Below the pieces are notes generated by a model. That model was not told the DNA's origin. It worked only from the letters and a program-made list of their open reading frames with translations, and ran no database searches. A DNA stretch of 64,000 bases. It comes from Catenaria anguillulae PL171. Its lineage: Eukaryota; Blastocladiomycota; Blastocladiomycetes; Blastocladiales; Catenariaceae. How positions within the stretch are numbered: the first letter of the stretch is position 1; every line of letters starts with the position of its first letter. Positions 25,569-45,281 of the stretch are shown here, one piece after another. The position numbers were made by a program, and so were the translations under genes. Where the stretch lies: NCBI GenBank assembly GCA_002102555.1, contig MCFL01000056.1, positions 98,330 to 162,329 of the forward strand. The letters are read 5' to 3'.

Positions 25569-26630
25569 TCACATGTTGGTCAGCGTGATGAGACGGGGAC
25601 ATTGCCTCATGGCGGTTGATGGCACAATGGGCGCAACCTCGGCCTTGCTGGGTGTCGTTGCTGCTGAAAGCTGCTTGTCACAAGTGGACGTGGCGTTGGG
25701 CGCGTGTCGCGTCATTGTGGGAACGGATTGCGCAGGTGCAGCCGCAGGTGTGGCGGGTGTGTTTGTGGGCGTGGTGGGTGCACTTGCGGGCGTGGCGGCC
25801 GTGCGTGCGGGTGAGGGTGTTGGTGCGGGCGCAGTGGCCTTTGGTGGCGCAAGGGAGAGGAAGGGCTCGGTTGGCGCAAGGAGTTGAAAGTGGGTGGCAC
25901 CAACCCCAGGCCTTTCAATAACTTTGGCCGGCACGTAGCAAGTCACGCCTGTTTCCGGGTCATTGAGCTTGACCTTGTTGGCGACACACACGACGGCATA
26001 CTCAAGAGCCAAATCGAGATATGGTCCAAGAAACTCTACGATTTTGCCCATGTGTCACGATAGAAGAAGAGTGAGTCCACAGCTGGCAACGAACTGCGGG
26101 CCGAAGTCAAGTCTTACCTGCACCATATCGAGTTGGTGCGGCTGCTCAGCACAGGCGCCGTCAAGCTCAACTCTGCGTGAACTTGCCCTGGTTCGCAATG
26201 ACCTCTTCGAGATGTCCGTGGTTGTGTGTCGGGACAAAGTAGCCCATGCACGGCTCTTGTTTTTGTTGCGTGGCCCGTGTGTTGAAGACACCAATGCGAA
26301 TTTGGCGATGCGGGAGCCTGGGGTCATCGATCGAGTAATTGACTTGTGTGGTTTCCGATTCACTCGGCGCTGAGACTGTCGTAAACAGGCAACCAGCTGA
26401 GTACAAAAGTAGATGCTTGATAGGAAATAGGCAATCACGCACAACAATGCGAACGGCCTGGTTACCCCGCCACATGTGCCGAGTGGGACCCGCTCGACAT
26501 CGCCGTGATAAACGAATGGACAAACATGAGTTTGTCGGCCCCCAATTCATGGCTGATCATGCTGAACATGGCGCTCCAAGCAGTTGCTCGACGATGGAAG
26601 GCGATCCAGGTATGCTGAACCTTGTGATGG
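25569..26630 (-). CDS. Unrecognised protein-coding gene
   Basis: Two protein-like minus-strand stretches. The upstream one (about 26630-26167) contains MISHELGADKLMFVHSFIT, VRIVVRDCLFPIKHLLLYSA, RIGVFNTRATQQKQEPCMGY and FVPTHNHGHLEEVIANQG. The downstream one (26051-25569) contains KIVEFLGPYLDLALEYAVVC and NDPETGVTCYVPAKVIERPG, then an Ala/Pro/Thr-rich repeat tail ending RLITLTNM. A junction around 26052-26160, with GTAAGAC at about 26118, joins them plausibly. The 5' end is unknown and may lie as far up as 27250. Codon use and residue patterns look coding, but I do not recognise the family. Confidence 0.4.
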
Positions 26631-27806
26631 CCGGCGGTGGCAGTGGTGGCACATATACGTGAACGGTGACTGGCATTGCGAGCACCGAGCAGGCTCGGAT
26701 ACAGGCCGCCGGCCGGTGCCGTTGATACGGCATAGTGACGATCGGCCGTATCAGCACCGCCCGTGCGTTGCGCAAGTCCCGTTCAATGAACACCGATTGC
26801 TTCGTGTGATCCAGGAGTGTGTGAGCAGGAGAAAAAAGGAGCAGTAAGAAAAAAAAGCAGACGAACCAGCATCTCTGGAAACAAAGTCTGCAGAGCGACG
26901 AGTGTCGATTCACGCCCCCCTCCAATCTACCTGAGCAGCCGGGTGCTCGCCAGGCCGACACGATGTGCAAAGAGTACGAGGGAACCAGGTTCTGGTAACG
27001 AGTGTTGGGTCGGGTAGAGGTTGTCGGCGGTGGAGGCAACAAGGTTCTGCCCGAAGGTTGAAATCCATGCCAAGCAGCGTGGCCAGCAGTGCAATCTTGG
27101 CTGGAGTCCCTAGCGTCGTTGCGAGACGATCGGAAATGATTGGCACGGAAGGAACGGTCGACAGCTCGAGGTGCATGGGCCAGTCTTGGGGTCTGGTGGT
27201 CTGGTCTGGTGGGTCGCGGGCAGCGGGCAGGGTCTGAGTGGAGCAAGATCAGTGAGAACAAGAGGAAGCGCATACACATATATGTAAGCGAGAGCGCCCA
27301 TATGATCTTTACAGTGTTTTTTTACGTCTGGCCAGGAGCGGCAGCCAAACAGAGGGATCGGCGACCCCAACCGGCCTCACCCCACCTCACGCACATGCAC
27401 GTGGCGTGACCCCAGGCCCGTGGGGCGCCGGCCCCGTCCGGCGTGATGATGCAAGATCTTGCAGATGGATGACTCCTGTTGAGGCCGCCCTTTGACAAAA
27501 TGAAAACGAGCGCGACCACCACAATTGCAACGGAACGGGAATCTGGAACAATCCGCCAGAATCTCCGTCCCTTATGTAAGTAGCTGAGCGACCAATGTAC
27601 ATTGCAATGGACCCATGGAAATACACTCAACGCCGTCCCTGATCCTGTAATTCCCGTCCCCACCCTCAAGCTCGAGGACTCCACCGCTGCTGTGACCGTT
27701 CCCAACCTCGAACGCCCTTCCCGCCAACGCCAAAGCAGAAGCCAACCCTTGGCCCGACCCGCACTGTCCTTTCCGTACTTGGGCCGACCTCATACCATAC
27801 CCCACA
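26631..27806. other. Region between unknown gene and PANK, no clear gene
   Basis: Minus-strand frames here (for example 27279-26557) look low in information and include a poly-Phe/Leu stretch from a purine tract. It may hold the 5' exons of the preceding minus-strand gene. Nothing else is supported. Confidence 0.4.
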
Positions 27807-29478
27807 ATGATGAACCTTGCTGGTGTCCACCTCGGCGACGAGGTCAGCTTGCGCGGCATCCGCGACATTGTGTTTCCCGAGCACAACGATCATGTTCCGC
27901 AAATCGCCATTGATGTACGAGCCGTCCCCAAGCTGCCATGTCGCTGTGTGAGGCAGCCTCTCGTTCATGCCAAGACTCTTGTAACATCGCCGGCTAATTG
28001 ATCGATCGCGGCTGCGCTGCTCTTGACCCCCACTCCCTCACTCAGATTGGCGGCAGTTTGGTCAAGATTGCCTATTTTACCCGGCATGCTTCAACCATTG
28101 CCACGACCGGATCGTCGCCCAACGCCTCCATTTCCCTCTCGCAAACCCCTGCGGCGGCGCTCGCAGCAAGCACATCGCCATCAGGATCATCCCCCTCACG
28201 CTCTTCACAACAGCGCGCAACCTACGTGTCTCCGACACCTCATACTCCCACGTCATCATCAGCCGGCCCGTCCACGATAGCCTCGGCCGCCGCCCTCGCC
28301 GCTCACGTGTCGCCCTTCCCGTCCAGCGACGGCCGAGGATCCCCCGCCGGCGGATCAGGCGGCCGCCTCAATTTCGTCAAGTTTGAAACCGCCAAAATGC
28401 CAGAGTGCATTGCCTTTCTCAAGCAATTGATCGAGGAGCAAGAACTTGACGCCGACGTGCCCCACGAGCGGACGTTGTTGGCGACCGGCGGCGGCGCGTA
28501 CAAGTATTACGAGACACTGGAGCGCGAGTTGGGAGCAAAGATTTTCAAATATGACGAAATGGAGTGTCTTGTCAAGGGTATGTGTGAGCACTTGTTTTCT
28601 GTTGCGGCCGTCGGCGTCGCCTCTGTTTGCTCTAACCTTACATCTCCATGATCAGGTCTGGATTTCCTTGTCAAATATGTCCCGCGTGAGGTTTTCACAT
28701 ACTTTGATTCCCAACCGATTCAATTCGAAAGCACTCCGCCAGAAAACGCATATCCGTACATGGTACCAGCATTTCTCTTCTCGTCTGTATTTGATCTCCA
28801 TTTGCTCATGATTGCCGTTCGCCCACCAGCTTGTCAACATTGGATCTGGCGTGTCTATTCTCAAGGTGACGGCGCCCGGTGTTTCCGAGCGGATAAGCGG
28901 TACCTCACTCGGTGGCGGCACATACTGGGGCCTCATGTCCATGCTCGCCGTGCAGCACGGCGTCAACTTGACGTTTGATGACATGCTCGAGCTGTCCAAG
29001 ACTGGTGACAACACCAATGTGGACATGCTTGTCGGTGACATTTACGGCATGGATTACAACAAGATTGGTACGCTGTCACATGCTCAGTCCCGATCACCAT
29101 CCTTGACATGCGCCTCACGCCCAATGTGTGTACACACTCTCGTCGTACCTAGGCCTCAAGAGCACCACCATTGCCTCAACCTTTGGCAAAATGTTCAAGA
29201 AATCGCCCGACGAGCGCCAATCCACGCCGCTCAACGACATGTCACGCTCGTTGCTCTTCATGTTGTCCAACAACATTGGCCAAATCGCGCACCTCAATGC
29301 AAAGGCACACAACATTTCGCGCATCTACTTTGGCGGGTACTTTATTTGTGGACACCCAATCACCATGCACACGCTGTCGTACGCCATCCAGTTTTGGTCG
29401 CGCGGCGAAACCAAGGCCCTGTTTCTTCGGCACGAAGGGTTCTTGGGCGCCGTCGGCGCGTTTTTGCAGCATCAGTAG
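27807..29478 (+). CDS. Type II pantothenate kinase
   Basis: It phosphorylates pantothenate, the first and regulated step of coenzyme A synthesis. Five exons (27807-27914, 28046-28577, 28656-28762, 28830-29067, 29153-29478) give 436 aa in frame throughout. Motifs: AIDIGGSLVKIAYF (phosphate-binding strand, formed across intron 1), ATGGGAYKYYETLE, VNIGSGVSILKV (adenosine motif), SGTSLGGGTYWGL, LVGDIYGMDYNKIG, and NIGQIAHLNAKAHNISRIYFGGYF near the C-terminus, as in eukaryotic PANK enzymes. An unusual Ser/Pro/Thr-rich insert of about 95 residues (28085-28365) sits after the first strand, in a surface loop; the catalytic motifs are intact. The MM start at 27807 has the only suitable ATG. This is among the cleanest gene models in the window. 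Confidence 0.93.
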
Positions 29479-31046
29479 ACGCGAGGCACAGGGCACGGGG
29501 AAGGTGTACCGATGTGTGGCGCATGGATCAAGGAAAGAGGATCGGGCCGTGTCATGATCATTCGTAAGGGTTTCAATTTGGCGAGTTGTAGTGTCTCATC
29601 TATTGCCTGTTCCATTTCTCTGCCGGTGGATATTTATTGCACTCTTCATGCACTCTGCTTTTTCATGCCATTTGTTAGAGTGTCAAGAGCGGATTTGGTC
29701 ACGCATATGAGCTCCATTGGCTTATGGGTTCATCGTCTTGACATCCACTCGTCTCATCAGACTGTGAGAGGTGCGGGGTTCATGCCCGTTGTAGTGCGAC
29801 CCCACCCTCACTGACAAACAGTTGATTGAGCAGGACCAAGTTGAATCAGTGTCTTGGATCTCGCCCTCGTGTCGGATAGGCACGCCAGTGCCACGCCATG
29901 CCACGCCAGTGCCACGCCCACCCATTTGCACTTTTGCGTCAATACAATCTCCACATGAGCATAATGGCTTGCTAAAGTTTGTACAATGTCAACCGACATC
30001 CGCTTGGTTGCCTACACCGAATCAGACCCCTGTGTACGTGATGTAGACAACACCTGTGTGCGGTACAGATATCCTGGCCGCCAAGATGTGTCATGAAGTG
30101 GGCAACATTCACAGTCATCCTATGCACCGACCGCATGAGACTTTAGATTCATTGAGCCTCTGTCAGCAGCTTGCTCGGCGCGCGTCCGCATTGGACTCAG
30201 TTGGCTGCGGACATCATCTTCGTGACCCGAACCAGCCTATTTCATGCCCATTCATCCAAGCTCAAACTCTCCTCGCCACGTTGGTTCATGGAAGGACAAG
30301 TACATTGCGACTCACGATTGACATCCACGACATGGCAAATGTGATGAGCCTCCTCGCGGGAAATCGCTTTAAGGGCCTCCCATACTTGCTGTCATGATGT
30401 TGTTGATGGAAATGATTGGACTCTGGGTGCTCAGCCACGCTGCCATTCCAGTCCGCCAAGTGGCTCGTGAACATCTGGATGCGTTCTGGACAGGTTCCCT
30501 ACCATGAGATGGCCTCCTCTTGAGCCAACCTCAATGATGGGCTTGCAATGTGAACTATTTGCCTTGAGCCGGATGGCTCTCTGGGCCATGCCCCACGGGT
30601 GCCGAGTCGACGCAGTATCGGACCAAATGTATGAATTGGGGGCGCTCGGGACATGGCTGGTTGATGAAGTGGTTCATGTTACCCTGAAAATATGTGTACT
30701 GAAAGAGGCGAGGCAATATTGGCACTGCACAGATTCCTTTAGGTCAGTCCACTTTGTGTGTCTCTCCTGCAAGTCTCCCACAGATGGAGGAGGTTGCAAG
30801 TCGCGATAAAACCCACCGACATCCCTTCCCATGCCTCGCAATTGTATACTGTAAGTATCGACTCTACTGCGGTGCAGCCTTTCCCCACTTCTTCCCTTGT
30901 ATATTCCCATCCCATCCACCCCCTTTCTTGGACTCTTGCTGGTCAAGTCCTCGCGTGTACATATCCACACCCATCAACCAACCACCTTCCAACCCCATCA
31001 AGACTCTCTCGATTACATTCCCACGCCATTCCCACGCCATTCCAAG
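29479..31046. other. Long intergenic region, no gene seen
   Basis: No supported gene. It includes a short CCACGCCAGTG-type direct repeat (29881-29925). The last 200 nt are pyrimidine-rich and run into the SSP1 start. Confidence 0.5.
29881..29925. repeat. Short tandem repeat, GCCACGCCAGT units
   Basis: Overlapping copies of CACGCCAGTGCCACGCC with small variations. A local slippage repeat. Confidence 0.6.
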
Positions 31047-31703
31047 ATGAAGTTCACCACCGTCACCCTCGTCGCCGCCCTGCTCTTGCTCGCCGAGCCC
31101 ATGCTCGCAGTGCCCATGCCCGCCCCACAAGCTGCCGGCACTCCCACTGTTGTCAAGATTGGCGTTGGTGCCAACGGTACCATCACTGGCGGATCCTCGT
31201 CGGGTGGCTCGACCGGCGCAACACCCACGCAACGCGCCGCGCCTGCCCCAGCACCGGCACCGGCACCCACGAGCTCGACTGGTAACGGCTCGTCCAACGG
31301 CGGTGGGTCGTCAAACGGCGGCAACCGGTCGTCCAACGGCGGCGGCTCATCCAACGGTGGCCGCTCTTCTAACGATGGCGGATCGTCCAACGGTGGCAAC
31401 AACTCGTCCAACGGTGGTAACAACTCGTCCAACGGTGGTAACAACTCGTCGCGCAATGGGGGTGCAAACCGTGGAAACAACAACCGTGGCGGCAACAACC
31501 AAGTCACCCAGTTGATTGACGATCTCGAGCGCGAGTTTGACGACTTGCAGCGCAACGTCAACGACCTCCGCCGTCTTCGCGATGTAGGCAACCTTGGGAA
31601 CGTGGAGCTCAACGAAGTGTCGCGGGAATCCCGGGACGCCCTTAATGCGGCTGACAACATTAGGGACCGACTGATCGACTTGGACAACAGCGCACGCGGA
31701 TAA
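31047..31703 (+). CDS. Small secreted protein 1 (SSP1), repeat linker plus C-terminal helical module
   Basis: 218 aa, intronless. Signal peptide MKFTTVTLVAALLLLAEPML, cut near AVPMPAP. Then a Gly/Ser/Thr region, a PAPAPAPAP stretch, and a long repeat of SSNGG units (31287-31449) that makes many NSS and NGS sequons for N-glycosylation. The last 65 residues form a charged helical module: LIDDLEREFDDLQRNVNDLR, then LNEVSRESRDAL, then DNIRDRLIDLDNSARG. The same module ends two other secreted proteins 3.3 and 4.5 kb downstream. I know no family with it. A repeat-linker surface or wall protein anchored by a coiled coil is inference. Confidence 0.85.
   Translation: MKFTTVTLVAALLLLAEPMLAVPMPAPQAAGTPTVVKIGVGANGTITGGSSSGGSTGATPTQRAAPAPAPAPAPTSSTGNGSSNGGGSSNGGNRSSNGGGSSNGGRSSNDGGSSNGGNNSSNGGNNSSNGGNNSSRNGGANRGNNNRGGNNQVTQLIDDLEREFDDLQRNVNDLRRLRDVGNLGNVELNEVSRESRDALNAADNIRDRLIDLDNSARG
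31287..31449 (+). repeat. Degenerate 15-nt coding repeat in SSP1
   Basis: Units of the type TCGTCCAACGGYGGY encode SSNGG, with three near-identical copies at the 3' end spelling SSNGGNN. The in-frame, length-variable pattern suggests slippage expansion. Confidence 0.8.
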
Positions 31704-31920
31704 GGAGCCATTTGGTGATCATTTGGTCGCTGCAGCGTCATTTTTGCGTGGTCCAGAGTCGAAAAACGGTTTTTGTTCACTGCCCCCCCCCCTTCCAGCA
31801 TGTCCCCCTCCCCCACCTTCATTCCCCGCTGGCGTGGAAGAGGTTGCTAGCAACCCTTTTGTTGAGTTTGTTTCGTATATATCACCTGCCCAATCATTCA
31901 TGTCCTCGCCCTTTTCCAGT

Positions 31921-31958
31921 TGCATGGTGACAAACTCCTTGCATGGTGACAAACTCCT
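31921..31958. repeat. Perfect 19-bp tandem duplication
   Basis: TGCATGGTGACAAACTCCT occurs twice head to tail, 3' of SSP1. It looks like a recent slippage or footprint-like duplication. No flanking element is seen. Confidence 0.75.
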
Positions 31959-32337
31959 TGATGTAAGAAATCTTGACTTTGAAGAAGATAATGTAAGACC
32001 GGTCTTTTATATCGTATCTTTGAGCTTGATGCGCGGCTGAACTCGAGCTCCGCCGACCGATACAGTATATATACTTGACGATGGGCTGTGTCTCTGCTCT
32101 TGCGCATGTGTTCATTTAGGATGGGGGCTGTTTGGTGGAGTCGGTCAGACGATGGCCACGGATCAGCGGCCTGTCTAATGTCCAGCACAAACAGCTGCAC
32201 GGTACATGCCAAAAAGTGAAGTCAGCCTGCCAAGTCAGCGACAATCCACCTGCTCCACTAGCAAAATTATGTGCATGTCGGCGTTCGGTTAGCCCACTGT
32301 TGTCCCTGCTCTGCCACCCTTGTCTGCAGGCACGGCC

Positions 32338-33441
32338 GGGTTTACTTCAGTAGTACACCGCTCATCTGGCAAATCTCACGACGATCGTTCCCAGCAACAA
32401 AAACACAACTTTGCTCCCGTGGTGCGATTGCCACCAGACTTGGAAGACGAGTTGATTATGCTTCTGATAAATTTTTCCCCTGGGGTTTTGGCTCCCGATA
32501 AATACACTCAAAATGTTTTAGTCCCGAGCCAAATGATGCACCTTGGCAATGGAGGCATCGGCCAATTCAAGTATCTGCAGGTTAGGCCGACCAGCATGCA
32601 TTCTCCCGCAACTTCGGGCATGAATTATGAAAAATTCCTTCATTCAAAAGAAATAAATGGTAGCGGGAAAGTGATACAGGGTTTTTTTCTCTAATTTTCT
32701 TGGGTCAATCTGGGTGTTGTTCAGGAGAAGAGTGATTTTCGATGGTTGGGAACAAAAGGGTATAAACGCCCAAAGTACTACCTACAAGCCGGACATCGGC
32801 CTGCCAATGCCGTCCAACCGCTTTCCGGTCGTGCTCGCACCGGAAACCTTCGCATTCAGTAACGGCTTTTCCAAGGAGCCGTTCTTGTTCCACCGTTCCC
32901 CGGACGGCACCGTGGACCTCCGCCGTGACGCCAACCAGCTGCAAGCAACTTGTCGGAGTCTTGTCGTTTACTCGCAACTGATCTTTTTCACACACTTTGG
33001 GCATCGCGGCATCCTCATGACATTTGACAAGTGTTAGTTACCATCCTTTTCCGTCCCGACCTTGTTTTTCGACTACGGAAATGCCCTCATGACGTTCCTG
33101 GTCATGGAGGCATTCACCGCTTCGTGATCATCGAAATGGACGAGCATTCCCATCGGCACTATCCGGCGCACACGGAACAAGCGCGCACAGACTACTTGCT
33201 TGGCCCAGCTGTCGGTTTAGTGATTCAACCGGACACTTACCAAGGCCATTCGCTCGTGTTGGAGCGCAGAATCCTTCACGAGACCGAGAATTCAAGGCAT
33301 CATGGCGGACCAAGGAACCGGGAGAAGAAATGGAGGTTTCCCAATGCTTATAGTTCTTGTTGTGGGCATGTCCCTTTTCCAAGTGAATCGTCTCCTTTTC
33401 TTTTCGCTTGTTGGGTAAATGTTTGTATTCGTGGGCATTGA
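32338..33441 (+). pseudogene. AT-richer remnant with PD-(D/E)XK-like motif
   Basis: Three consecutive frames read as protein but are interrupted: 32338-32694 (LPPDLEDELIMLLINFSPGV), 32714-33037 (RVIFDGWEQKGINA; DGTVDLRRDANQL) and 33031-33441. The last contains FRPDLVF, then FVIIEMDEHSHRHYP, a downstream EQAR and LVIQPDTYQG. The order RPD ... (V/I)IE-x-DE-x-H ... R ... NPD-like resembles the PD-(D/E)XK-type proteins common in giant DNA viruses and their relics, where the segments read RPD and IE-DE-QH. Base composition is AT-richer than neighbouring genes. No start or stop structure supports an expressed gene. Motif reading is from memory of the family's pattern, so confidence is low to moderate. 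Confidence 0.4.
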
Positions 33442-34370
33442 TCATGTTGTCTTGGGAAATGTCAGGAGGAAAGACCTGTACATGGAACCTTACTCTGTGC
33501 TCAATTCTGCCCTCGCCAATTGGGTGCTACAAACCATAGCGGGCTGCAATAACCGAGTGAATCCAGTCCTTTTCTTGCCGCGAGCACAGGTGGGCACCAT
33601 TCATGCACGCCAACTCTGCAGACAGTGCTCAACAACGCCTGCAGCACGTGTCACACCAGACACAACATGTCGCTGCCATGCCGTTCGTGACCTACACCAT
33701 ATGATTGCATGTCCGTGCTTGGCCTATCTCAACCGAAGCTCTGTTTTCCAGCGCGATATTTGCTTGGTCGATTCCACGCAAGACAAGACTGCCTCAATCT
33801 GTTGCTTTCGGCCGCGGTTGATAGAACAATGCGGGTCAGGAATAGGAACCGACCTAGCTTGCATTGCCTCTCAGCAAGTCCAGTGAGGCAGCGAGCATTT
33901 GGTGCACGTTCATGTGCAATTTGCACTGAGAAGGTCCTCCACTCTGACTCGTGCTTTGTTGAACTCCGAACTGCAAAACAATTGACACCTTTGGACATGC
34001 ACCCGTTATAATCCGCCTCAAAGTACATGATGGTTCTCATTTCGTCCAACATGGCTGCTTCATGGCCATGATCCATGTCAAATCATTTCGCCACATTCGC
34101 TGCCGCGCCTCACCATGAACAGCCATTCTGACCACTATGGCTTACCAACATTGAAGCAGGTTCATGGCCGTCTCAAGCGCCTGAATGCTCTTTGCGACTC
34201 GCGCCACACGGAATTGACTCTCTGCTGAATTTGACAAATAGATTCAAAAAGAGCGACGTTCCCGCCTCCCCACTAGTTCGGCGTCGAAACATCTTCATTC
34301 CCTGAATTCCCATCACAGTTTTTACCCTTCCATTCCCAATTCATCTGTTGCTGGTCAACCTTGTCTCAAA
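33442..34370. other. Intergenic before SSP2, no clear gene
   Basis: Frames here (for example 33419-33886) have no recognisable feature. They could be further debris of the preceding remnant. Confidence 0.4.
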
Positions 34371-34736
34371 ATGCGCACTTTCACCCTTTTCATTGCCGTG
34401 TTCGCCCTGCTCCTCCTTTCGCCCGCGGTCCTGGCCCAAGGCAACAACAACAACAACATCGTCCGACTCATTGACGATTTGGAGCGCAGCCGTGACGACT
34501 TGGAACGCGATATTGTACGCCATTCATCACTCAACGCGCATGCCGCTCGCCTGCCAGACACTCATCGTTGATTGATTTGTGTGCGATAGAACGATCTCCG
34601 CCGGATTCGCGGCCAGGGCAACGAAATCAATCGTGCCGACCTCGCCGAAGTGAGCCGCCGCACCCGCGATGCGCTGCAGAACATCGACAATGTTCGGGAC
34701 GACCTGATTAATCTTGACAACGCTTCTCGGCAATAG
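34371..34736 (+). CDS. Small secreted protein 2 (SSP2), minimal form of the SSP module
   Basis: 96 aa in two exons (34371-34514 and 34590-34736). A signal peptide (LFIAVFALLLLSPAVLAQ) is followed almost directly by the module: NIVRLIDDLERSRDDLERDI, intron, NDLRRIRGQGNEINRADLAE, VSRRTRDALQNIDNVRDDLI, NLDNASRQ. Only GNNNNN separates the two, so this protein defines the module boundaries. Donor GTACGC and acceptor GATAG are clean and phase 0. Closest to SSP1 in sequence (LIDDLER, NDLRR, EVSR, RDAL, DN-RD-LI-LDN shared). Function unknown; secretion is well supported. Confidence 0.85.
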
Positions 34737-35562
34737 AAGGCAGTGCTGGTCACTGTCCGTGTTGCCGCGTATTCCCTGGATACTTTTGCCTCGTGTTGAT
34801 CTCATGTCTGGCACTTCATCCCTGTACATACAATTGTGTTTGCCGTGAATCGAAGTTTTCTCATCGATCTGGGGTTGAGCTGAGAATGTAGAGCAAGAAT
34901 CATGGGAATGTATGCACCTCGGTCGTGGCTGACTTGAGTTCAGGAGCTCGCGGGGCTGCCAAGCATTAAACGTCAATGTCAATGCAAAGTCACAATGATT
35001 GTTTTTACGAAGCCTTCATAGCAATTTCTGATGGCCTCTGGCAAGCTCTCATGCAAGTCCATGAAAAACGGGGTGCGGTACCCATTAGCTGTCAGCCATG
35101 GGTCAATACGGCGCGAGCCGTTTGTTAGCAATGCACCGAAAAGCACGAAGGCATTTCTCCCATTTCCCTCAATGCACTTATGTTCTGAAGGGCTCGAGAA
35201 ATTGCGACTTGGTGCTGGGAAAAAAGGTCCTGTTGGCTTGTGCAAGCGCCACTGATGAGCTGAAAGGTTGGTGATCATGAACGGTTCAGTTGTATGTGAG
35301 ACATGAAATCAAGCCTTGAGCTCTGATTCGGCACAGCTCTGCTGCTTCAAACCTCAATGAGTTCGGCCAAGCATTACTTCAGTGAAGCGAAATTGATGAT
35401 TTTGCTTGGCTCGGTGACTAGGGAGGGGCAGGATACATATTCCTTGCAGACTCCCGCCTTCGCTGCCGACATCCCACAACGAAAGCACAATCATTTGGCA
35501 CACGTTGACCGTTGCCCCCCCCAACATCCCGTGTACATTTCCTCTCAGTTCAGCACATCACC
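34737..35562. other. Intergenic between SSP2 and SSP3
   Basis: A minus-strand frame (35278-34979, 99 aa) has some protein-like stretches (PFFMDLHESLPEAIRNCYEG) but no start context, domain or splice support. I do not call it a gene. Confidence 0.4.
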
Positions 35563-36531
35563 ATGAAGATCTCTACGCTCAGTCTTCTCGTTGCCGCCGC
35601 CATCCTGTTTGCCGACCCGTCGCAATCGGCCCCGACACCCTCCGGCCTGACCCTGCACCGGCGCGGAAACAACAACGGCGGCAACAACTCGTCCAACCGC
35701 GTGAGCGGTCCTTCACGATCCTCGACCCGAGGCCAGCAGCAACAGGGCAGGAACGCCGCAGGCGGCCGTCGAAACCAAGTGCAGCCGCCAAGCCGGAACC
35801 AAGGACGTGCCACCGAGCAAGCGGGCAACCAAGGCCAAGGCCAAGGCCAACAACGTCAAGATCAAGGGCGTCGCGTCCAGGGACCCAATAGGAACGCAGG
35901 GCGCCAGCAGCAGCCACCCGCCGCCGGAAACGGTAACGGCAACCAAGAAGGTCAGGATCAACAGCAGCCAGAGGAAGGCGCGGACGCCGAAGAAGACGAG
36001 AACGCGGGTGATGGGAATGATGCTGGCGCTGGCGCCGGCGAGGACAACGGGGAGGAGAACAACAATGGCGAAAACGGAGCAGAGCAGGGACAAGATGGAG
36101 GAAACCAAGGCGGCAACGCCGGAGGTCAGAATGGTGCCGGCAACCGGAACGGCAACCAACAAGGACGGAACGGGGGCGGGCAGCAGCGGGGTCGGAACCA
36201 ACGGGATAACAATCAGGACAACGCCGATGGTGCGCAGATGGAGCGGTTGATGGACCAGTTGCAGCGCGAGACGGAGGCTTTGGTCAACAATGTGGTGCGT
36301 TTTGGCTCTTTTTCTTCCGAGTGGTTCGTCGTCTCCGAATATACTCACGCTGGCATGATTCATGTAAACCGACATTAGAATGACGTCCTCAACTTCCGGG
36401 ACGAAGCCAGCAGCCTCACACGGGACGACTTGCTTGCCATCACCCGTGACACGGCCGCCGCCCTCAATGACGCCGCGAACACTCGCGACGCACTGCTCGA
36501 TTTGGATCGTGCTGCCCGTGATGCTGCTTGA
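35563..36531 (+). CDS. Small secreted protein 3 (SSP3), Gln/Asn/Gly-rich linker plus SSP module
   Basis: 294 aa in two exons (35563-36294 and 36379-36531). Signal peptide MKISTLSLLVAAAILFADPS; a possible dibasic cut site (HRR) around residue 33. Then about 190 residues of low-complexity Gln/Asn/Gly/Arg sequence with an acidic centre (EEGADAEEDEN). The C-terminal module is the most diverged of the three: MERLMDQLQRETEALVNNV, intron, NDVLNFRDEASSLTRDDLLA, ITRDTAAALNDAANTRDALL, DLDRAARDAA. The intron lies at exactly the same point as in SSP2, just before Asn-Asp, and also in phase 0. Likely extracellular; role unknown. Confidence 0.82.
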
Positions 36532-36783
36532 GCGCCTGTTTCACACATTCCTTTCGCATCCCGCCATTTTGCTCGGTTGGGCTGGACCCCCGTTGATTGT
36601 ACATATCCTCCTCATACATTGCCATATCGTGACTCTCCCGTTGCGCATTTTGTCTGCTCGTTCGTTCACCTCGTAACATGCTATTGTCGGCGAGCAAAAA
36701 ATGCAACGGCAAGGTAATGTTCACAGAGAAGAGGATAGGCTTTATATGTACAGTAGCAAAGCTGCCCATCGATCGCTGCTGCC

Positions 36784-39700
36784 TTACCCAGTCCCGCCAC
36801 CACGCCACAAACTCGCCACGCTTGCCGTGACCCCTGCCGCACTGACGCCGACCGATCCTTCTCTTACCTGCATTCCCACAGTTGGCACCGTCGGCACGAT
36901 CGCTGGACACCCACCCACATGTGCCACGGCCCCCGTGCCCACCTCAACACTAACGTTTGCCTTGGGGACCCTACCGACCTGCAACCCACACGCAACACAA
37001 CGACTGAGGTGATCCACAGGTACCCCACCTCGGGCCTTGCGCATGGTAGCCGACATGAACTGAATCACGTCGTGCCGCAACACGTTGCGTGCTTGCCCGC
37101 GGACCTCGACTTGGGTGGTAAAGTCGCGCACAATTGATGTGAGCAGGTCTTTGAGTCCAGGGATTTGGGCGCCGCGCGGGACACGGCGGATGAGGCGAAT
37201 CGGGTCGATGGAGAGGTTGGTGGATTTGAAGAGAGGCGCCCAGTACTCTGTTGTAGTTGACGCGAACGACAAAGAGGTCAGATGTCAAGCCTGTGCATAG
37301 GATAGGACGATGGAAGCGTACTTGGCTTATGGACCGCAAACTCGAGCAAGTCGTCCCACAAATCGTGATCCTGCTGCTGTTTTGCATATTCGATAGCCTG
37401 GCATACACCATCCAACACAGTCAGAGAAACAAACTAGTACCCGCCACTCAGAGAGAAAAACCAACGAACCATTTCAATATCATCCATCCTATCCATCATA
37501 ATGACCAGCGCCCGTTTGTGATCGCCCATCCTGCCCAACACATAGACCATTTCCCGCAACATGCCCTTCTTTTCCGTCAACGCCAACGCCCGATCCAGAG
37601 GATAATACACGGACCGCTTCAAAAACTCGAGCAAGCTCGCGGGCCGATACTCTGCAATCAAATCCAACAAGTCACCATGCAACTGATGTGCCGCCGCCGC
37701 ATTGCCCCCCGCCGCCCCCATGTGCGCGTCGCGCGTGTACAAGGCATACAAGTACACAAACAAGTACTTGCGATTTGCAGCCAGTGCGTGCGCAGCATCC
37801 ACAGGATCCACCAAGTGTGTGCGGCTGACGAGCAAGTGGATGGCGTGCGATTGGAGCATGCGCGTCAAATCGGACGCATAGTGCCGGTCGCACAGCGCCA
37901 GCCATTCGATGCCGCGTTGGCGGATCAGCGGGCTTGTGATGGGCGCGTGCGAGTCGAGTAGGGAAACGGCACTGGAAAAGTCGTCGAGGGCCATGAGCGA
38001 ACACACTTGCTTGTAAGCGAGCTTTTCGTGCGCGTAGAGTTTGACTGAGGCGTGGAGCAGGTCGCGGTCTGTGGGAAAATCTGTCAACGTGTCCTCGAGT
38101 GCGGTTAGGACAGTTGGCACAGTGTAAATGTCGGTGGGCCACGTGTCAATGAGCCGTCGAAAGACCTGATCATAAGTGCAAAGGGGGGTTAAGGATAAAA
38201 AACGTCATCTGCGCAACGACGGATAGGAAGAAAAACCACGCACGGCAAAGTCAGTAGAGAGAGCATGCGCCAGAATCACCTCGTACAAGGTGTGATCAAG
38301 CACCGGATTGTGCACGGGTACCACATCGAGTATCGCCTAACAGGATGTGTGTCAAGTCGGGCATATCAGGAGGTCAAGAGCAAATTGGCAACCAAGAGAC
38401 ATACGTCGATCGCTTCCACCTCCAAAAACAAAGCCACCCACCGCTCCCACAACTCATGCGACTTGCCCAACACCACTCCACACAACCCGGCCGCCCTCTG
38501 CACCTCCCCTGCATCCACCAGCTCGCCCAACACCCGCTGCCCCAACTCGACCAATCTGAACTCTGGCTTGACCAGCCCGTTCTTTGACTGTGTCGCATCT
38601 GCACTCAATGCAACAGCCTCCTCATATCGTCCGCGCTCCAGCATCCATTCGATCCGATCATTGACGTCGCGCGGCCGCACCGTGATCACGTCCTTGGGCG
38701 ACACGAGTAGGTACATGGAGTCGGCAGCCGGGTCGTCGGGTACGTGCAGCATGGAAAAGGCCGTGGGCGGGTATCGGTCGTGGTTGCGGATCGACAGCAG
38801 GTCGCGCGCGAGCAGTGGCGAGAGTGGCGTGGATGGATCCAGCAGAAGGGTTTCTGGGGTGCGCAAGGTCGGTTGGTCGTCCGTGTCTGACTCGGAAGAG
38901 GTCGGGTTGCCGTGGGAATGAGAGGACGGATCGTTTGGGTCCCAAACGCCGAGAATCAGGTAATTGGTTTGAAATGGCTGGATGCCGCCAATGACGGGCT
39001 CAACTGTAGCTCTGAAAAGAGAGTCAGAGATTGACGATGTACAGTGAGCGAATGTGTGCAAGTCAAACTCACACAGGAGAAGACAAAACATACTGGATCG
39101 TAATGCTGGCATTGTAGCCCATGCCCAACACCATTGCCGGTTTGACCTCGACAATTTGCACCACCTTTTGCCACCCAACCACCACCACCTCATCGCTTTT
39201 CCACACCAAATGCGGCCGAAACATGTCGGGCCGCTCATCAAAGAAGGGCACATGGCTCTTGCACACAATACGTGCCCCACGCACATCGTACAACCCGAAC
39301 CCGACCTCGGTCACATACGCAACCAGTGCCGCTCGCCACGCGACCGCAAGCACAGATCCCTCGACCGTATCCAAGACCGACTTGCGCGGCCCCGTCCACC
39401 GGCGCTCAAACATGGCCACCTCGCCCGCGTGCCCACCGGCAACAAACCTGGATGTTTTGGCATACTCTGGATCCAGGGCAAGGCACTTTATCGGGCGGCG
39501 AAACTCGAACGGGCGCACGTCGTTGGCAAACAAGCCCGCGATAATCACGCGGCCGTCCTCGCCTGCCGACGCGACAAACTCTTGAGTTGAGTCAATGCAC
39601 ACGGCAGACACTGACGACCGGTGGTGCGACAACGATTGGATGATGGTGCCCGAGTAGTCGACCACGTGGACGTGCCCCGAATAGGTGCCCAGCAGCAGGA

Positions 39701-40148
39701 ATTTGTCGGTGCAGGTGGCGGCCGAGATGGCGTCGGTGAGGAGCAGGGTGGGCAGGTCACCCGTGAGGCGCGAATACTTGAGGTTGGGTTCAGGATCATC
39801 GTCTTCATTGTCTTCATCATTGTCATTTTCGGAATCGGCTTCCGGGTCGTCGTTGGCGTGATGGTTGGAGGCGGACGAGGGTCGCGGTGGCGGATCTGCG
39901 GGCGCCGAGTCGGATGTGGGAGGTGAGGCAGCCATTGGCGGCGGTGTAAACAAATCGGGTGTGTGGCCGTTGGCAGGTATGGCGCTAGCAGTCAAGCTCG
40001 AAAGGGAGTTGGCGGCTGACACCGAGTTGGATACGGCGGGCGAGGCGGGAATCGGGACATTGTGGGGCAGAACGAGGATGGCCGCGCCATCGATGGGGCC
40101 AGCGTGAGGCAGAGGGCCAGCAGGATCTTGCTTGGAATCGAGGCTCAT
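36784..40148 (-). CDS. VPS41: VPS41, HOPS complex subunit
   Basis: VPS41 tethers late endosomes and AP-3 vesicles to the vacuole. Six exons (40148-39094, 39011-38405, 38336-38244, 38165-37470, 37397-37322, 37247-36784) sum to 996 aa in frame. After a 125-residue acidic disordered start comes the beta-propeller: LKYSRLTGDLPTLLLTDAIS, DKFLLLGTYSGHVHVVDYSG, SAVCIDSTQEFVASAGEDGR. Then the helical solenoid with the clathrin-repeat region (RRLIDTWPTDIYTVPTVLTA; KQVCSLMALDDFSSAVSLLD) and LSIDPIRLIRRVPRGAQIPG near the C-terminus. VPS41 normally ends in a RING-H2 domain. Here only RCVACG and a later H-x2-GC are recognisable and the final cysteine pair is absent, so the RING appears degenerate. It is divergent from the radial spoke gene, 247 nt between starts. 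Confidence 0.93.
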
Positions 40149-40395
40149 GGTTGCATTATGGAATAGCTTATGCGGTACATATGTATTGTGAGTATTGGGA
40201 TCGCGCCATTCTCACGACAATCACTACAACTGGTCACGTCTGGAAGAAGGAAGGAAGAAGGGTGAGCGAAAGCAGGATCACGTGCCTTGGCTACCCTGGA
40301 ACGGGTTGGTGATCGCGCACGATGCCATGCTGCCATTCCCACGCCCTTGACTTCATGTATGGCCAGCAACAAAGACAACGACAGACACCGCCACC

Positions 40396-42277
40396 ATGGA
40401 CGACATCGCCTCCGCAAAGCAGTACCTGCAGCAGCACTCTGACCGCACGGGCATCAACCTTTACGACCACCTGACCGACCTCGTCGCGTCACTGCTCGAG
40501 CGTCGCCCAAAGAACCCCGCCGACGTCTTTGAGGGCGTGTCGGCCCAGCTCAAGCGCAAGCGCTTCAACCTCGACGCTCTCAATGCGCCCCTCGGATACA
40601 ACAAGGTCCCCGACACGTCCCAGGCACACCAGGGCGTCCACAAGCTGGTTGCCCTCTTGCAAGTATGCTCTTTGCGTCTTGATTATCACGCCGCGTTTCA
40701 TGCACTACATCACGCCAAACTCACACGCTTATTCATATAGGCCAGCACCAAAAACACCGAAGACCAAGCAGACGATGGTGCTGGCCAAGTCCCCGACATT
40801 CTCGACCTTGCCCACCTCTTTGAATCCACTGGCGTCTCGCTCGGCAAGGAAGAAACCTTGTTCCTTGCTCTCGCCATCCACCAGCTCGTCAAGGACCAGG
40901 GCCTGCAATCGGCGCGCTTTTGGGGCAAAATTCACGGCACCGAAAAGTCGTACTACATTGTTGAGGCCGAGGGTGGGCCTTCCGAGGAAGATGCTGCTGC
41001 GGCCGCGGCTGCTGCGACTCCGGCATCCACTGATGCAGCTGCGGCCAAGGAAGCCGGTGGCGGCGGAGGTGACGCGTCGGCGACAGCAAGTACGGCGCCC
41101 GTGGATCCGGCAAAACTGATTGACATGCCCGAGTTTCAGGGATTCAAGGCGCCGGCCAAGCCCGTGGTGCACGAGGTGCCCAAGGAAGAGGGAACTGGGT
41201 GTAACAAGTACACGTACTTTGTGTGCACGTCACGTATGTTTTCCCCCCTTCTTCGTTGATCAGATCATTCATCATTCCATGTCACTTATACTATGATAAA
41301 CAAACATAGTCGGCGACTCGTGGACCCGGCTGCCCGACACGCACCCATCGCACATTTCCACTGCGCGCACCTTGCGCAAACTCCTGACTGGCCACCTTTC
41401 GCGGCCCATCTGCTCGTACCCGCCGTTCCCTGCGGGCCTCACGGAAGCCCACTACTTGCGTGCGCAAATTGCACGCATCACGGCATCGACAGTGGTCTGC
41501 CCACAGGGATATTACACGTTTGACCCGGAAGCCGCCGACGAAGAACACCCAGAGCTCAACACGGCCATCATTGTCAATGCAGAGTACGAGGTGCTGCCCA
41601 ATGACGCCATGTTGAGTTTGGACAATTGGGTCCATCAAATGCCGCACGTGTTGCCCCAGGGACGCACCGTTTGGGTGAACCCGGTGCCTGAAAAGGAGGA
41701 AGGCGACGAGGGCGGCGAGGGCGGCGACGGCGGCGGTGGAGGCGACGAGGAAGCGGAAGAAAAGGATGAGGACGAGGACGAGGAAGATGGCGGCGACTCG
41801 GGCAACGCGACGCGTGGCGATGCTGAGCAAGAAATCGAGCCGGAATCGGGGCCTGCGCTGCTCACGGCCGTGACCGAGGACGCTGAAGTATGCCCGGGTG
41901 TCGCGTCGTGGTCGGTGCGCGCGTGCTCGCGTTTGTTGCCTGTCAAGTTCTCGCCCGTGCATTTGCGGTCCAACCGGTGGCCCGGCGCACACGCTGTGTA
42001 TTACAATGGGAAATTTGCGTGTGTTTATGTGGGCGATGGCATCAAGGAGTTGGGCAGCACGCCGTTCACGCTGCCTGCCGTGCCAAAGATGCGCGCAGAG
42101 TATGCGGTGCCTGCAAAGTGGGCGGGCAAGGTCGGGCTTACAGAAAAGGATGATCCCAGTGTTGCAGACGAGAAGGCGTTTGAGGAGATGCTGAAGCAAA
42201 AGGAGGACGATGCCATGCCGGATGAGGACGATGGAGCAGGTGGGGAGGGAGACGGCGCTGGTGGGGATGATCAGTAA
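40396..42277 (+). CDS. Radial spoke head protein 4/6 (axonemal)
   Basis: A core protein of the radial spoke head, which signals to dynein arms in motile 9+2 flagella. Three exons (40396-40662, 40741-41233, 41310-42277) give 575 aa; the start has the context CCACCATGG. Family signatures: AKQYLQQHSDRTGINLYDHL, FEGVSAQLKRKRF, LFESTGVSLGKEETLFLALA, ARFWGKIHGTEKSYYIVEAE, NKYTYFVCTS, ARTLRKLLTGHL, EYEVLPNDAMLSLDNWVHQM and LRSNRWPGAHAVYYNGKFAC. The acidic stretch after VNPVPEKEEG (41690-41830, Glu/Asp/Gly) is expanded and is followed by the conserved SWSVRACSR block. It ends in an acidic Asp/Glu/Gly tail. Its presence shows that the organism builds motile flagella. RSP4 and RSP6 are close paralogues and I cannot choose between them. 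Confidence 0.94.
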
Positions 42278-43535
42278 ATCTCTGTGTTGTGTTAACTTGA
42301 TGTTTTCAGTTGTTTCTGATGTTCCCACGCTTCATGGGCTGGGCCGCCGAATCGACCATGACCATTGATGTCTTGACCATTTAATTGAACCGGTTTGACT
42401 GCCTGTTTACACTACATCAGGGGTACCTCGTACCCCTGACTCCATACGCATCGAAGTATATATGCACACAAACAAGCATGCATGGAGTTGTGGCCAGCGC
42501 GTCGCGCGCTGAACAGCATGCGAAACGCGTGCCCTGCTGATAAGAGCTTGATTGAACGGCGTGACAAGGGGCGTGACCCGAATGAAAAGAAAACGTGCCC
42601 GTGGGGCTTGCTCTCCCTGGGTCCCTCGCCATCTCTGCCGGCGGTTGACTTTTGACCGTCGCTGGCAAGCAAGTGGCCCACTTGTGCTCATGCTCTTATT
42701 GGATATTGAATATTTTCAATGCGTGAAAAGACATGAACGTCCTGCATTGACAGCCGACACATCCTACCTACACATTTACTGCGCTGCCTGACCCACAAAC
42801 ACGACGGACGACAACCAACCAACCAACCCAACCAACCCTACCCTGACCTGGTATCCGTCGTGTTCGCACTTGCTCTTCATCGTCATTCATTCGCCTACAC
42901 CCACGTCGACATCGTCACCGAAAATCTCGAGGTTGCTTGCTTTGCTTGCCTTGCCCGGCCGACGATTCATGCAGCCATCACTCGCTCTTTGTGTGCAATT
43001 CCAACTGTCCGAGCCCAGCCAGTATGTTGCCATGTTGTTTGCCTGTAATGCCGGTAATGAAGCAATGGTTCGAATCCAACATTGCGGACACGTTGCTCGT
43101 GGGTGGCCGTGGTGGCAATAGCGCCCGGACTTGCATTCAATCCGATGCTGAAGCTGACGGTCATGATGGCCATGCCATTGCGCTCTCGTCTCGTTCCTGT
43201 TAACGTTACGTACAGGCTTGGACTCTAGATATCCCGCTCCGGCTCCCCAGTCCGGTCTTGGCACTGTTGGTTCAGTTCCGCGCGGTGCGGTCCGTTCCAC
43301 CCACCATTCTCGACACGCAGGTCCACTTCAAGTCACACAGTCGACACGCCGCCGCATCCACTTTCCACCGACTTGAACCAGCTCCAGCTACGAGCTTCAC
43401 TATACATAGAGACCCGCCCCCGCTCCTCTCTCATCCAACCGACTTCGAACTCGACCCAATTAGTCTCCCTCCCCGCTATCCCTCATAGTAAGCTATTCGT
43501 AGTCAACTACTCTCTCCATCGCCATCGCCATCGCC
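42278..43535. other. Intergenic between RSPH and SLC35E, no gene seen
   Basis: No supported gene. It contains a short CCAACC-type simple repeat (42809-42841). The last 200 nt are C/T-rich and include repeated CCATCG triplets just before the next start. Confidence 0.5.
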
Positions 43536-45281
43536 ATGATTCCCCTCTCCCCTGCTTCCTTCTCGCTGCCACCGGGCACCAACGAATCGACGCGTCAAGG
43601 CAACCCCGCAGAAGCAGCTCCGCTCTTGGCTCCTGTCGCCACGCCGTTATCCACCGACCCCGGCACGACCCCTCCTCCCACGGGGAACCCAAAGCTTTCT
43701 CCCAAGCGCCGCCTCATTCACCATGGCCGCTCAGCTTCTGCTGCATCCTACCTCGGCCCCAACGGCTCTGCCATTCATCATCACTCTGCAGCGTCTGCGA
43801 CCATCAACGTTCCCTCGGCCACTTCCTCGTCAACGTCTCTCCAAGTTTCGGAAGCATCGCTCTCATTGTCCAGCGATCAGTCGCCTCCCCCGCCCTACGC
43901 CACCGACATCAATCCCAGCGGCAATGCCGTCTCTCCATACACGCCCAAGGACAAGCCCAGTAGTCCGCCCGCTGGCGAGTCATCCATTTCGACCTCGTTC
44001 GGCATGCCCTCGCCACGTACACTGCGCGCCATTGTCGGCTCGTCACGAACAGTGCACATCAACATCCACAACTACTTTGCCAACGGCTCGGCGTCGTCAT
44101 CCTCGTCCAAGTCGCCATCAGTACCGACAAAGAGCCTCTCGCGGTCATCTTCTTTCACCTCGCTCCCTCCACCAGCCACACTCCCATCGACGCCAACGTC
44201 TTGGTTCTCGCGTCTCTCGAAATCCACACAATCGCTGCACCTCATCTTCATGTGCCTGGCCTGGTACGCCGCCTCGGCGCTCACCAACAATGCGAAAAAG
44301 CAAATCTTGATCCAGTTCCCGTTCCCGGTCTCGCTCACCATTGCGCAATTCCTGTCTGTTGCCGTGCTGTGCCTCTTTGGGTCTTCCCGCAACTGGCTGA
44401 CGCTGCGCCCGCTGTCCTGGACCATTGTCCGCACCTTGCTCCCGCTCGGCCTGTTCCAAATCGGCGGACACACATTTGCGAGCTTGGCCATGGCGCGCGT
44501 GCCCGTGGCATTTGTGCACACGGTCAAGGCACTCAGCCCGCTCTTCACTGTGGTCGTATCGCACGTGGTCTTGGGCGCGCGGTATCCCGCCAAAGTGTGG
44601 CTGTCGCTGCTGCCCCTCATGGCCGGCGTGATTCTCGCGTGCACGTTTGGCAAGGCTAGCATGGCGTTTCATTTCACGGGCTTTTTGTTTTCCGCGCTCA
44701 GCACCATCATCTTTGTGCTCCAGTCCATCATTTCAAAGAAGATCTTGTCTGGCGGCGACGCTGCGGGCGCAGGCTCTTCGGTGCCCATGTCGTCGACCAA
44801 CCTGGGTGGCGGATCCGCAAAGTACGACCCGTTGCTCCCAACATCGGTGGCTGCGGCTGCGGCGCCCAAGATGGCCAAGCTCGACAAGATCAACATCATG
44901 TACTACTCGTCGCTCATGGCGTTTGCCACCATGATCCCCATGTGGCTCACGTCCGATGTGCCAACTCTGATGCACCCACACGGACCCGAAGTGATTGTGG
45001 ACCGGCGACTCTTGGCGCTGTTTATCCTCAACGGCCTCGCGCACTTCTCGCAAGCGCTGCTTGCATTCTCCATCTTGTCGCGCGTATCCACCGTCACCTA
45101 TTCGATTGTGTCGCTGCTCAAGCGCATTGTGGTCATTGTGGCGGCCATTGCCTGGTTTGGCGATACCGTCAGTGGAACGCAAGCGGTGGGTGTTGCCTTG
45201 ACGTTTGTGGGCTTGTGGTTGTATCAGAAGGCAAAGCGGGCAGGTGGGGCCGCAAGTGGGCGTGCTGGACATGCCGACTGA
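43536..45281 (+). CDS. SLC35E/triose-phosphate-translocator family transporter
   Basis: One exon, 581 aa. The first 225 residues are Ser/Pro-rich and disordered, then about ten membrane segments: LHLIFMCLAWYAASALTNNA, FPFPVSLTIAQFLSVAVLCL, PLGLFQIGGHTFASLAMARV, VPVAFVHTVKALSPLFTVVV, LPLMAGVILACTFGKASMAF, HFTGFLFSALSTIIFVLQSI, then a hydrophilic loop, INIMYYSSLMAFATMIPMWL, FILNGLAHFSQALLAFSILS and the end VALTFVGLWLYQKAKR. VKALSPLFTVV, the NNAKKQIL segment and VSLLKRIVVI are characteristic of the TPT/SLC35E group (Sly41-like in yeast). These are Golgi/ER antiporters for phosphorylated sugars or nucleotide sugars; substrate cannot be read from the sequence. The long disordered N-terminus is larger than usual for the family. 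Confidence 0.88.
   Translation: MIPLSPASFSLPPGTNESTRQGNPAEAAPLLAPVATPLSTDPGTTPPPTGNPKLSPKRRLIHHGRSASAASYLGPNGSAIHHHSAASATINVPSATSSSTSLQVSEASLSLSSDQSPPPPYATDINPSGNAVSPYTPKDKPSSPPAGESSISTSFGMPSPRTLRAIVGSSRTVHINIHNYFANGSASSSSSKSPSVPTKSLSRSSSFTSLPPPATLPSTPTSWFSRLSKSTQSLHLIFMCLAWYAASALTNNAKKQILIQFPFPVSLTIAQFLSVAVLCLFGSSRNWLTLRPLSWTIVRTLLPLGLFQIGGHTFASLAMARVPVAFVHTVKALSPLFTVVVSHVVLGARYPAKVWLSLLPLMAGVILACTFGKASMAFHFTGFLFSALSTIIFVLQSIISKKILSGGDAAGAGSSVPMSSTNLGGGSAKYDPLLPTSVAAAAAPKMAKLDKINIMYYSSLMAFATMIPMWLTSDVPTLMHPHGPEVIVDRRLLALFILNGLAHFSQALLAFSILSRVSTVTYSIVSLLKRIVVIVAAIAWFGDTVSGTQAVGVALTFVGLWLYQKAKRAGGAASGRAGHAD

Follow-up and report, generated by a model that had tools for sequence, protein, structure and literature searches.

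Organization of the SSP locus

The 64,000-nucleotide stretch of the Catenaria anguillulae PL171 (Blastocladiomycota) genome analyzed here, hereafter the window, lies within contig C410 of an assembly comprising 41.07 Mb in 457 contigs. It contains three genes, SSP1, SSP2 and SSP3, whose apparently secreted products end in the same C-terminal module. The organism is entered in the table of a review as a soil inhabitant that parasitizes nematodes facultatively (PMC6690862).

The positions and strand given for the three genes in a preliminary description of this DNA were borne out (Table 1), and the arrangement it had proposed, a fixed C-terminal module preceded by differing linkers, was recovered in all three proteins. 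The linkers span approximately 129 residues in SSP1 (Gly/Ser/Asn-rich, with N-glycosylation motifs), 7 in SSP2 and 200 in SSP3 (Gly/Gln/Asn/Arg-rich, with an acidic middle). The repeats of SSP1 end in an array of 3.2 copies of a 21-bp unit with 97% match, as determined with Tandem Repeats Finder. Signal peptides and the absence of anchors were judged by inspection of the sequences; each protein starts with a basic residue and a hydrophobic stretch, consistent with the signal peptide that the preliminary description had assigned to it. Spliced SSP2 is identical (100%, full length) to the hypothetical protein BCR44DRAFT_1515969 of C. anguillulae PL171, and the splice junction is the same.

Table 1. 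Coordinates of the SSP genes, their components and neighboring features in the window (aa, amino acids; ORF, open reading frame).
Feature	Position	Strand	Description
SSP1	31047..31703	+	Single exon, 218 aa, open frame; signal-peptide-like N-terminus followed by a Pro/Ala and SSNGG-repeat linker and, at the C-terminus, the hairpin module
SSP1 SSNGG-type coding repeats	31286..31450	+	Periods of 18, 21 and 39 bp (Tandem Repeats Finder)
SSP1 module	31491..31700	+	70 aa, predicted two-helix hairpin (AlphaFold2 and alignment)
SSP2 exon 1	34371..34514	+	Encodes a signal-peptide-like N-terminus, a short run of Asn and the beginning of the module
SSP2 intron	34515..34589	+	75 bp, phase 0, GT..AG
SSP2 exon 2	34590..34736	+	Second part of module, stop; SSP2 totals 96 aa
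SSP3 exon 1	35563..36294	+	Encodes a signal-peptide-like N-terminus, a linker (Gly/Gln/Asn/Arg-rich and acidic) and the beginning of the module
SSP3 intron	36295..36378	+	84 bp, phase 0, GT..AG; matches the intron of SSP2 in codon position
SSP3 exon 2	36379..36531	+	Remainder of module, stop; SSP3 totals 294 aa
ORFs between SSP1 and SSP2	32807-33037, 33136-33441, 33419-33886		76-155 aa
Fumble-type pantothenate kinase	28397-29567	+	Housekeeping; pieces of the gene scanned
Vps41	37434-40148	-	Housekeeping; pieces of the gene scanned
Triose-phosphate-transporter-family protein	43536-45278
AICARFT/IMPCHase purine enzyme	51492-53096		

The C-terminal modules share a common ancestor

The module comprises about 70 residues, and the five motifs named for it beforehand are found in SSP1, SSP2 and SSP3 in the same order. 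An alignment of the three modules reveals 19 invariant columns, 11 of them occupied by Asn, Asp or Arg, and pairwise identities of 39/68 (57%), 29/69 (42%) and 24/69 (35%). The corresponding Smith-Waterman scores (196, 126 and 120) were reached by none of 2000 full shuffles per pair, nor by any of 2000 shuffles per pair that preserved the hydrophobic/polar pattern (z of 9.3 to 12.9). Because the real scores exceed those of all shuffles, chance is excluded and the three modules are homologous. Searches of the whole 41-Mb genome, exon by exon, likewise connected the genes: the SSP1 module retrieved SSP2 at an expectation (E) value of ~3e-8 and SSP3 at ~3e-3, the SSP2 protein retrieved SSP1 at 2.4e-15, and the SSP3 module retrieved SSP1 at 2.9e-7. 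Independent evidence of homology comes from the phase-0 intron shared by SSP2 and SSP3, which directly precedes an invariant Asn-Asp pair; SSP1 has no intron at this position.

Synonymous divergence (dS) between the paralogues ranges from 1.3 to 2.9, with synonymous sites near saturation, indicating that the duplications are old. The linker-coding DNA of SSP1 and SSP3 presents matches of 12-27 bp, the best being 25 bp at 96%, in the part encoding NSSN; apart from these, comparison of the DNA flanking the genes gave just 11-15-bp matches (best E 0.005). The SSNGG repeats may thus have grown from an ancestral motif or, the sequence being simple, have arisen by convergence. Taken together, the sequence comparisons identify SSP1, SSP2 and SSP3 as a single family of tandem paralogues whose module is of common descent.

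Two 11-bp tandem repeats were also noted upstream of SSP1, at 29881-29918 (CACGCCAGTGC) and at 31016-31043 (CATTCCCACGC), the second directly before its start codon.

Predicted fold and amino acid composition

AlphaFold2 returned a two-helix hairpin for both of the modules that were folded, out of the three in the family. For the SSP1 module, with a mean predicted local distance difference test (pLDDT) score of 90.2, the helices span residues 2-32 and 37-69. The two helices of the module are therefore predicted to run antiparallel as a hairpin and to follow a heptad pattern. Structure searches with the predicted hairpin yielded common hairpins alone among the matches listed.

The composition of the proteins is strongly biased. 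The mature forms of SSP1, SSP2 and SSP3, which were taken by eye to start after residue 21 or 22, contain a single Lys against 57 Arg and no Cys, Trp or Tyr, and the three modules together contain no Lys and 31 Arg. The Lys fraction K/(K+R) of nine window ORFs of at least 330 aa, whether real genes or not, ranges from 0.14 to 0.54 (pooled 0.331). The pooled rate gives a binomial probability of 2e-9 for at most one Lys in 58 such residues, and the lowest rate gives 0.0017, figures that overstate the case, the paralogues being related. Possible reasons for this scarcity are salt bridges formed by Arg in the hairpin, linker condensation driven by Arg, and an escape from modification at Lys. The linker of SSP3 is rich in Arg (20 of 202 residues), unlike fungal low-complexity regions, which the title of one study reports to be depleted in positive charge (PMC11878562).

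A second copy of the locus and evidence of coding constraint

Contig C331 (17,897 bases) is collinear, nearly end to end, with positions 26179-44048 of the window at ~95% identity or, counted over aligned columns, at 2.7% mismatches with gaps in addition. This contig probably represents the other, uncollapsed haplotype, its genes being alleles of those in the window, but it may instead stem from a recent segmental duplication. Its presence also implies that the assembly may overcount genes in some regions.

Intact copies of all three SSP genes are present on C331, and coding length differences between the copies amount to whole codons throughout. SSP1 differs by 5 synonymous and no nonsynonymous changes, the C331 version (225 aa) carrying one extra in-frame repeat unit of 7 residues (21 bp). 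SSP3 differs by 7 synonymous and 5 nonsynonymous changes, and all 12 substitutions lie upstream of the module. SSP2 presents 2 synonymous and 3 nonsynonymous changes, with one codon gained and one lost; since 3 nonsynonymous changes and 1 synonymous change fall in its module, constraint on the SSP2 module is not demonstrated. When the three genes are combined, synonymous changes make up 14 of 22, versus the 24.9% expected (one-sided p 1.4e-4), an excess that is significant for SSP1 (p 0.0013) and SSP3 (p 0.011), but not for SSP2 alone (p 0.36). These counts point to purifying rather than diversifying selection overall across the three genes.

The introns, in turn, diverge faster than the exons they separate. 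The SSP2 intron differs between contigs at 9 of 75 positions (12%) versus 1.4-2.1% for the SSP2 exons, and the SSP3 intron at 5 of 84 (6%) versus 0% in both adjoining pieces of the module. Pooled, the introns differ at 14 of 159 positions and the coding sequences of SSP2 and SSP3 at 17 of 1173 (p 3e-6), and GT/AG splice sites are retained in both copies of both introns. SSP1 and SSP3 hence look like working genes, or genes that worked until recently, and the intact frame, the conserved splice sites and the fast-diverging intron argue that SSP2 is a gene as well. The three ORFs between SSP1 and SSP2, which presented no Pfam match at E <= 0.01, are probably non-coding or decayed; among 18 stretches compared across the contigs, the 1-kb one at 33179-34178 diverges most (6.0%).

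Comparison with known families

No Pfam or NCBIfam model scored above its cut-off for SSP1, SSP2 or SSP3, and a strong Pfam match to the module was not obtained, consistent with its initial designation as unrecognized. Nothing in NCBIfam came near a cut-off. In Pfam, the best match of SSP2 was TolA_bind_tri (E 0.028, below its cut-off), and LXG (PF04740) was matched by SSP1 (E 0.0054, 17.1 bits) and SSP3 (E 0.087, 13.1 bits). The charged helical stretches of these two modules align to the same part of the LXG profile (102-168 and 103-168 of 202), but their scores lie below the gathering cut-off of 26.5 and SSP2 is not listed. LXG domains are found at the N-terminus of toxins that bacteria export by type VII secretion, whereas the SSP module is C-terminal and belongs to fungal proteins without a recognized further domain. 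Membership in the LXG/WXG superfamily was rejected in view of these scores and of a setting, a blastocladiomycete genome with housekeeping neighbors, that is not a bacterial type VII secretion context.

A profile search of PDB sequences produced three matches, all at E 0.61 or worse. The designed helical-hairpin homo-oligomers (5j0k) have a common hairpin shape, are non-natural and share 13-15% identity. The phytoplasma effector Phyllogen PHYL1 (6inr) is bacterial, shares 9% identity, and its match is tied with those of unrelated hairpins.

Fungal adhesins and glycosylphosphatidylinositol (GPI) wall proteins typically carry a Ser/Thr-rich stalk. The SSP proteins resemble them in their apparent secretion, in a low-complexity repeat stalk and in the N-glycosylation motifs of SSP1, but differ in having a C-terminal module and in lacking a known ligand domain and, by inspection, an anchor. 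All three end charged, with no C-terminal hydrophobic GPI or membrane-anchor stretch seen on inspection, and the Pfam and NCBIfam scans revealed no recognized carbohydrate-binding domain. In the absence of an anchor, of cysteines and of such a domain, any attachment to the wall would be indirect. Many small secreted fungal effectors contain cysteines, and assignment to the cysteine-rich class was discarded, there being no Cys in any of the three proteins.

Extent of the family

Genome searches returned at least 6 matches for the SSP1 module, at least 8 for the SSP3 module, at least 10 for the SSP2 protein and, at E <= 0.001, at least 3 for the SSP1 linker with half of the module, counts that are lower bounds. 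The matches listed are pieces of SSP1, SSP2 and SSP3 on the two contigs, with the exception of two weak places on contigs C323 and C100 (E 0.14 and 0.16), which belong to frames of 1614 and 1981 aa and were discounted as chance matches. Within the window, no further copy was found below E 0.08.

Against 5.77 billion proteins, SSP2 yielded 10 candidates, with SSP2 itself as the single match at E <= 1; the SSP1 module yielded 42 candidates (~120-381 aa) and no match at E <= 10; and a profile of the three modules yielded 3089 candidates, SSP2 again being the single match at E <= 10. The profile search suggested in the preliminary description thus returned SSP2 alone, as a lineage-restricted family would, but leaves that restriction unproven, as SSP1 and SSP3 of the same strain went unreturned too. 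Given that two of three same-strain paralogues were missed, finding nothing elsewhere carries little weight. SSP1 and SSP3 fall within the size range searched, so they seem to be absent from the protein database in this form, and relatives in other species could likewise be absent from it. The family is likely lineage-restricted, with database coverage of other Blastocladiomycota lacking a positive control. A literature search returned nothing on these proteins among the papers listed, and neither the SSP2 gene tag nor its prefix was matched in paper texts.

A family of putative extracellular hairpin proteins

The reading of the SSP proteins as an unrecognized secreted family holds, the surface, wall or adhesion role suggested along with it stays a conjecture, and the orphan family is real and of an ordinary kind. 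As to its role, we tentatively favor, at somewhat below even odds, a small family of secreted hairpin proteins in which a self-associating core presents hydrophilic spacers within a coat or matrix outside the cell; here secretion and hairpin are predicted, and self-association and site are inferred. An old tandem duplication would have given rise to the family, and extracellular hairpins of one or several paralogues would pack together into small helical bundles. Such a core would hold the N-terminal linkers, which would be disordered, hydrophilic and in part N-glycosylatable spacers, and a mixture of paralogues would produce a hydrated coat or matrix. With little besides the module, SSP2 could serve as a cap or adaptor, with SSP1 and SSP3 carrying the brushes, and repeat slippage would shift linker length while the module is retained.

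The main rival, to which we assign about one chance in four, is that these are host-interaction proteins: on attachment or infection, the hairpin would bind a target of the nematode or of a cell surface, and the linkers would merely keep it at a distance from the cell. The proposal of adhesion made for these genes at the outset is compatible with this role and with a coat alike, but no anchor is visible. The resemblance to PHYL1 would suit a role at the host, but is tied with many unrelated hairpins; the proteins lack the cysteines of many small secreted fungal effectors, selection between the copies is purifying overall instead of diversifying, and the Lys bias could be compositional. An unlikely alternative is a lineage-specific filler or matrix of the resting spore or cyst wall, in which bulk composition is what matters and the hairpin just keeps chains soluble during secretion. 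The Gly/Ser/Asn-rich (SSP1) and Gly/Gln/Asn-rich (SSP3) linkers are consistent with such a filler, as is a SSP1 repeat that varies in length between copies with no other amino acid change. Yet it is the module that all three paralogues have in common, it accumulated no nonsynonymous change in two of the three genes, and SSP2 is nearly devoid of linker.

That the three frames are fortuitous or decaying copies without function appears very improbable. Neither SSP1 nor SSP3 was found as an annotated protein in the database searches, and SSP2 taken alone shows no significant synonymous excess; against this stand the intact second copies with coding indels that are all multiples of three, the overall synonymous excess, the faster introns with GT/AG kept in both copies, and the database entry for SSP2, which is spliced identically. 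We give almost no credence to SSP2 being a t-SNARE-like coiled-coil protein, as prompted by its UniRef source name, which begins 't-SNARE coiled-coi' (incomplete). A designed sc-t-SNARE did appear in the PDB sequence search (E 0.61), as did the Syntaxin 6/10/61 N-terminal model in Pfam (E 0.31, 12.1 bits versus a cut-off of 29.4). SNAREs, however, act on the cytosolic side and are usually tail-anchored, whereas SSP2 has a signal-peptide-like start and a hydrophilic C-terminus without a membrane anchor, by inspection. Moreover, Pfam scans of the three proteins at E <= 10 listed no SNARE coiled-coil model, although the HMMER filters discard most weak matches. Since no such model was listed and SSP2 looks secreted, its name is probably a coiled-coil artefact, a mis-annotation of a secreted hairpin.

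A bolder version of the coat hypothesis, which we regard as a long shot, is that the family represents a new extracellular structural or adhesive class of zoosporic fungi. In this scenario, near-Lys-free and Cys-free hairpin oligomers would cross-link Arg/Asn/Gln/Gly-rich polyampholyte brushes into a zoospore or cyst coat or glue, tuned by the repeat length of the linkers.

The protein database searched seems to lack two of the three family genes, and SSP2, with 96 residues that are nearly all module, should be easy to express and test. Lineage-specific secreted families are common in fungi, and the SSP proteins would be one more of these if the coat hypothesis proved false. Adhesins are rarely described outside the Ascomycota, and least of all outside the Dikarya, according to a review (PMC6023273). 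If the coat hypothesis proved true, an early-diverging fungus would have a matrix protein family of its own.

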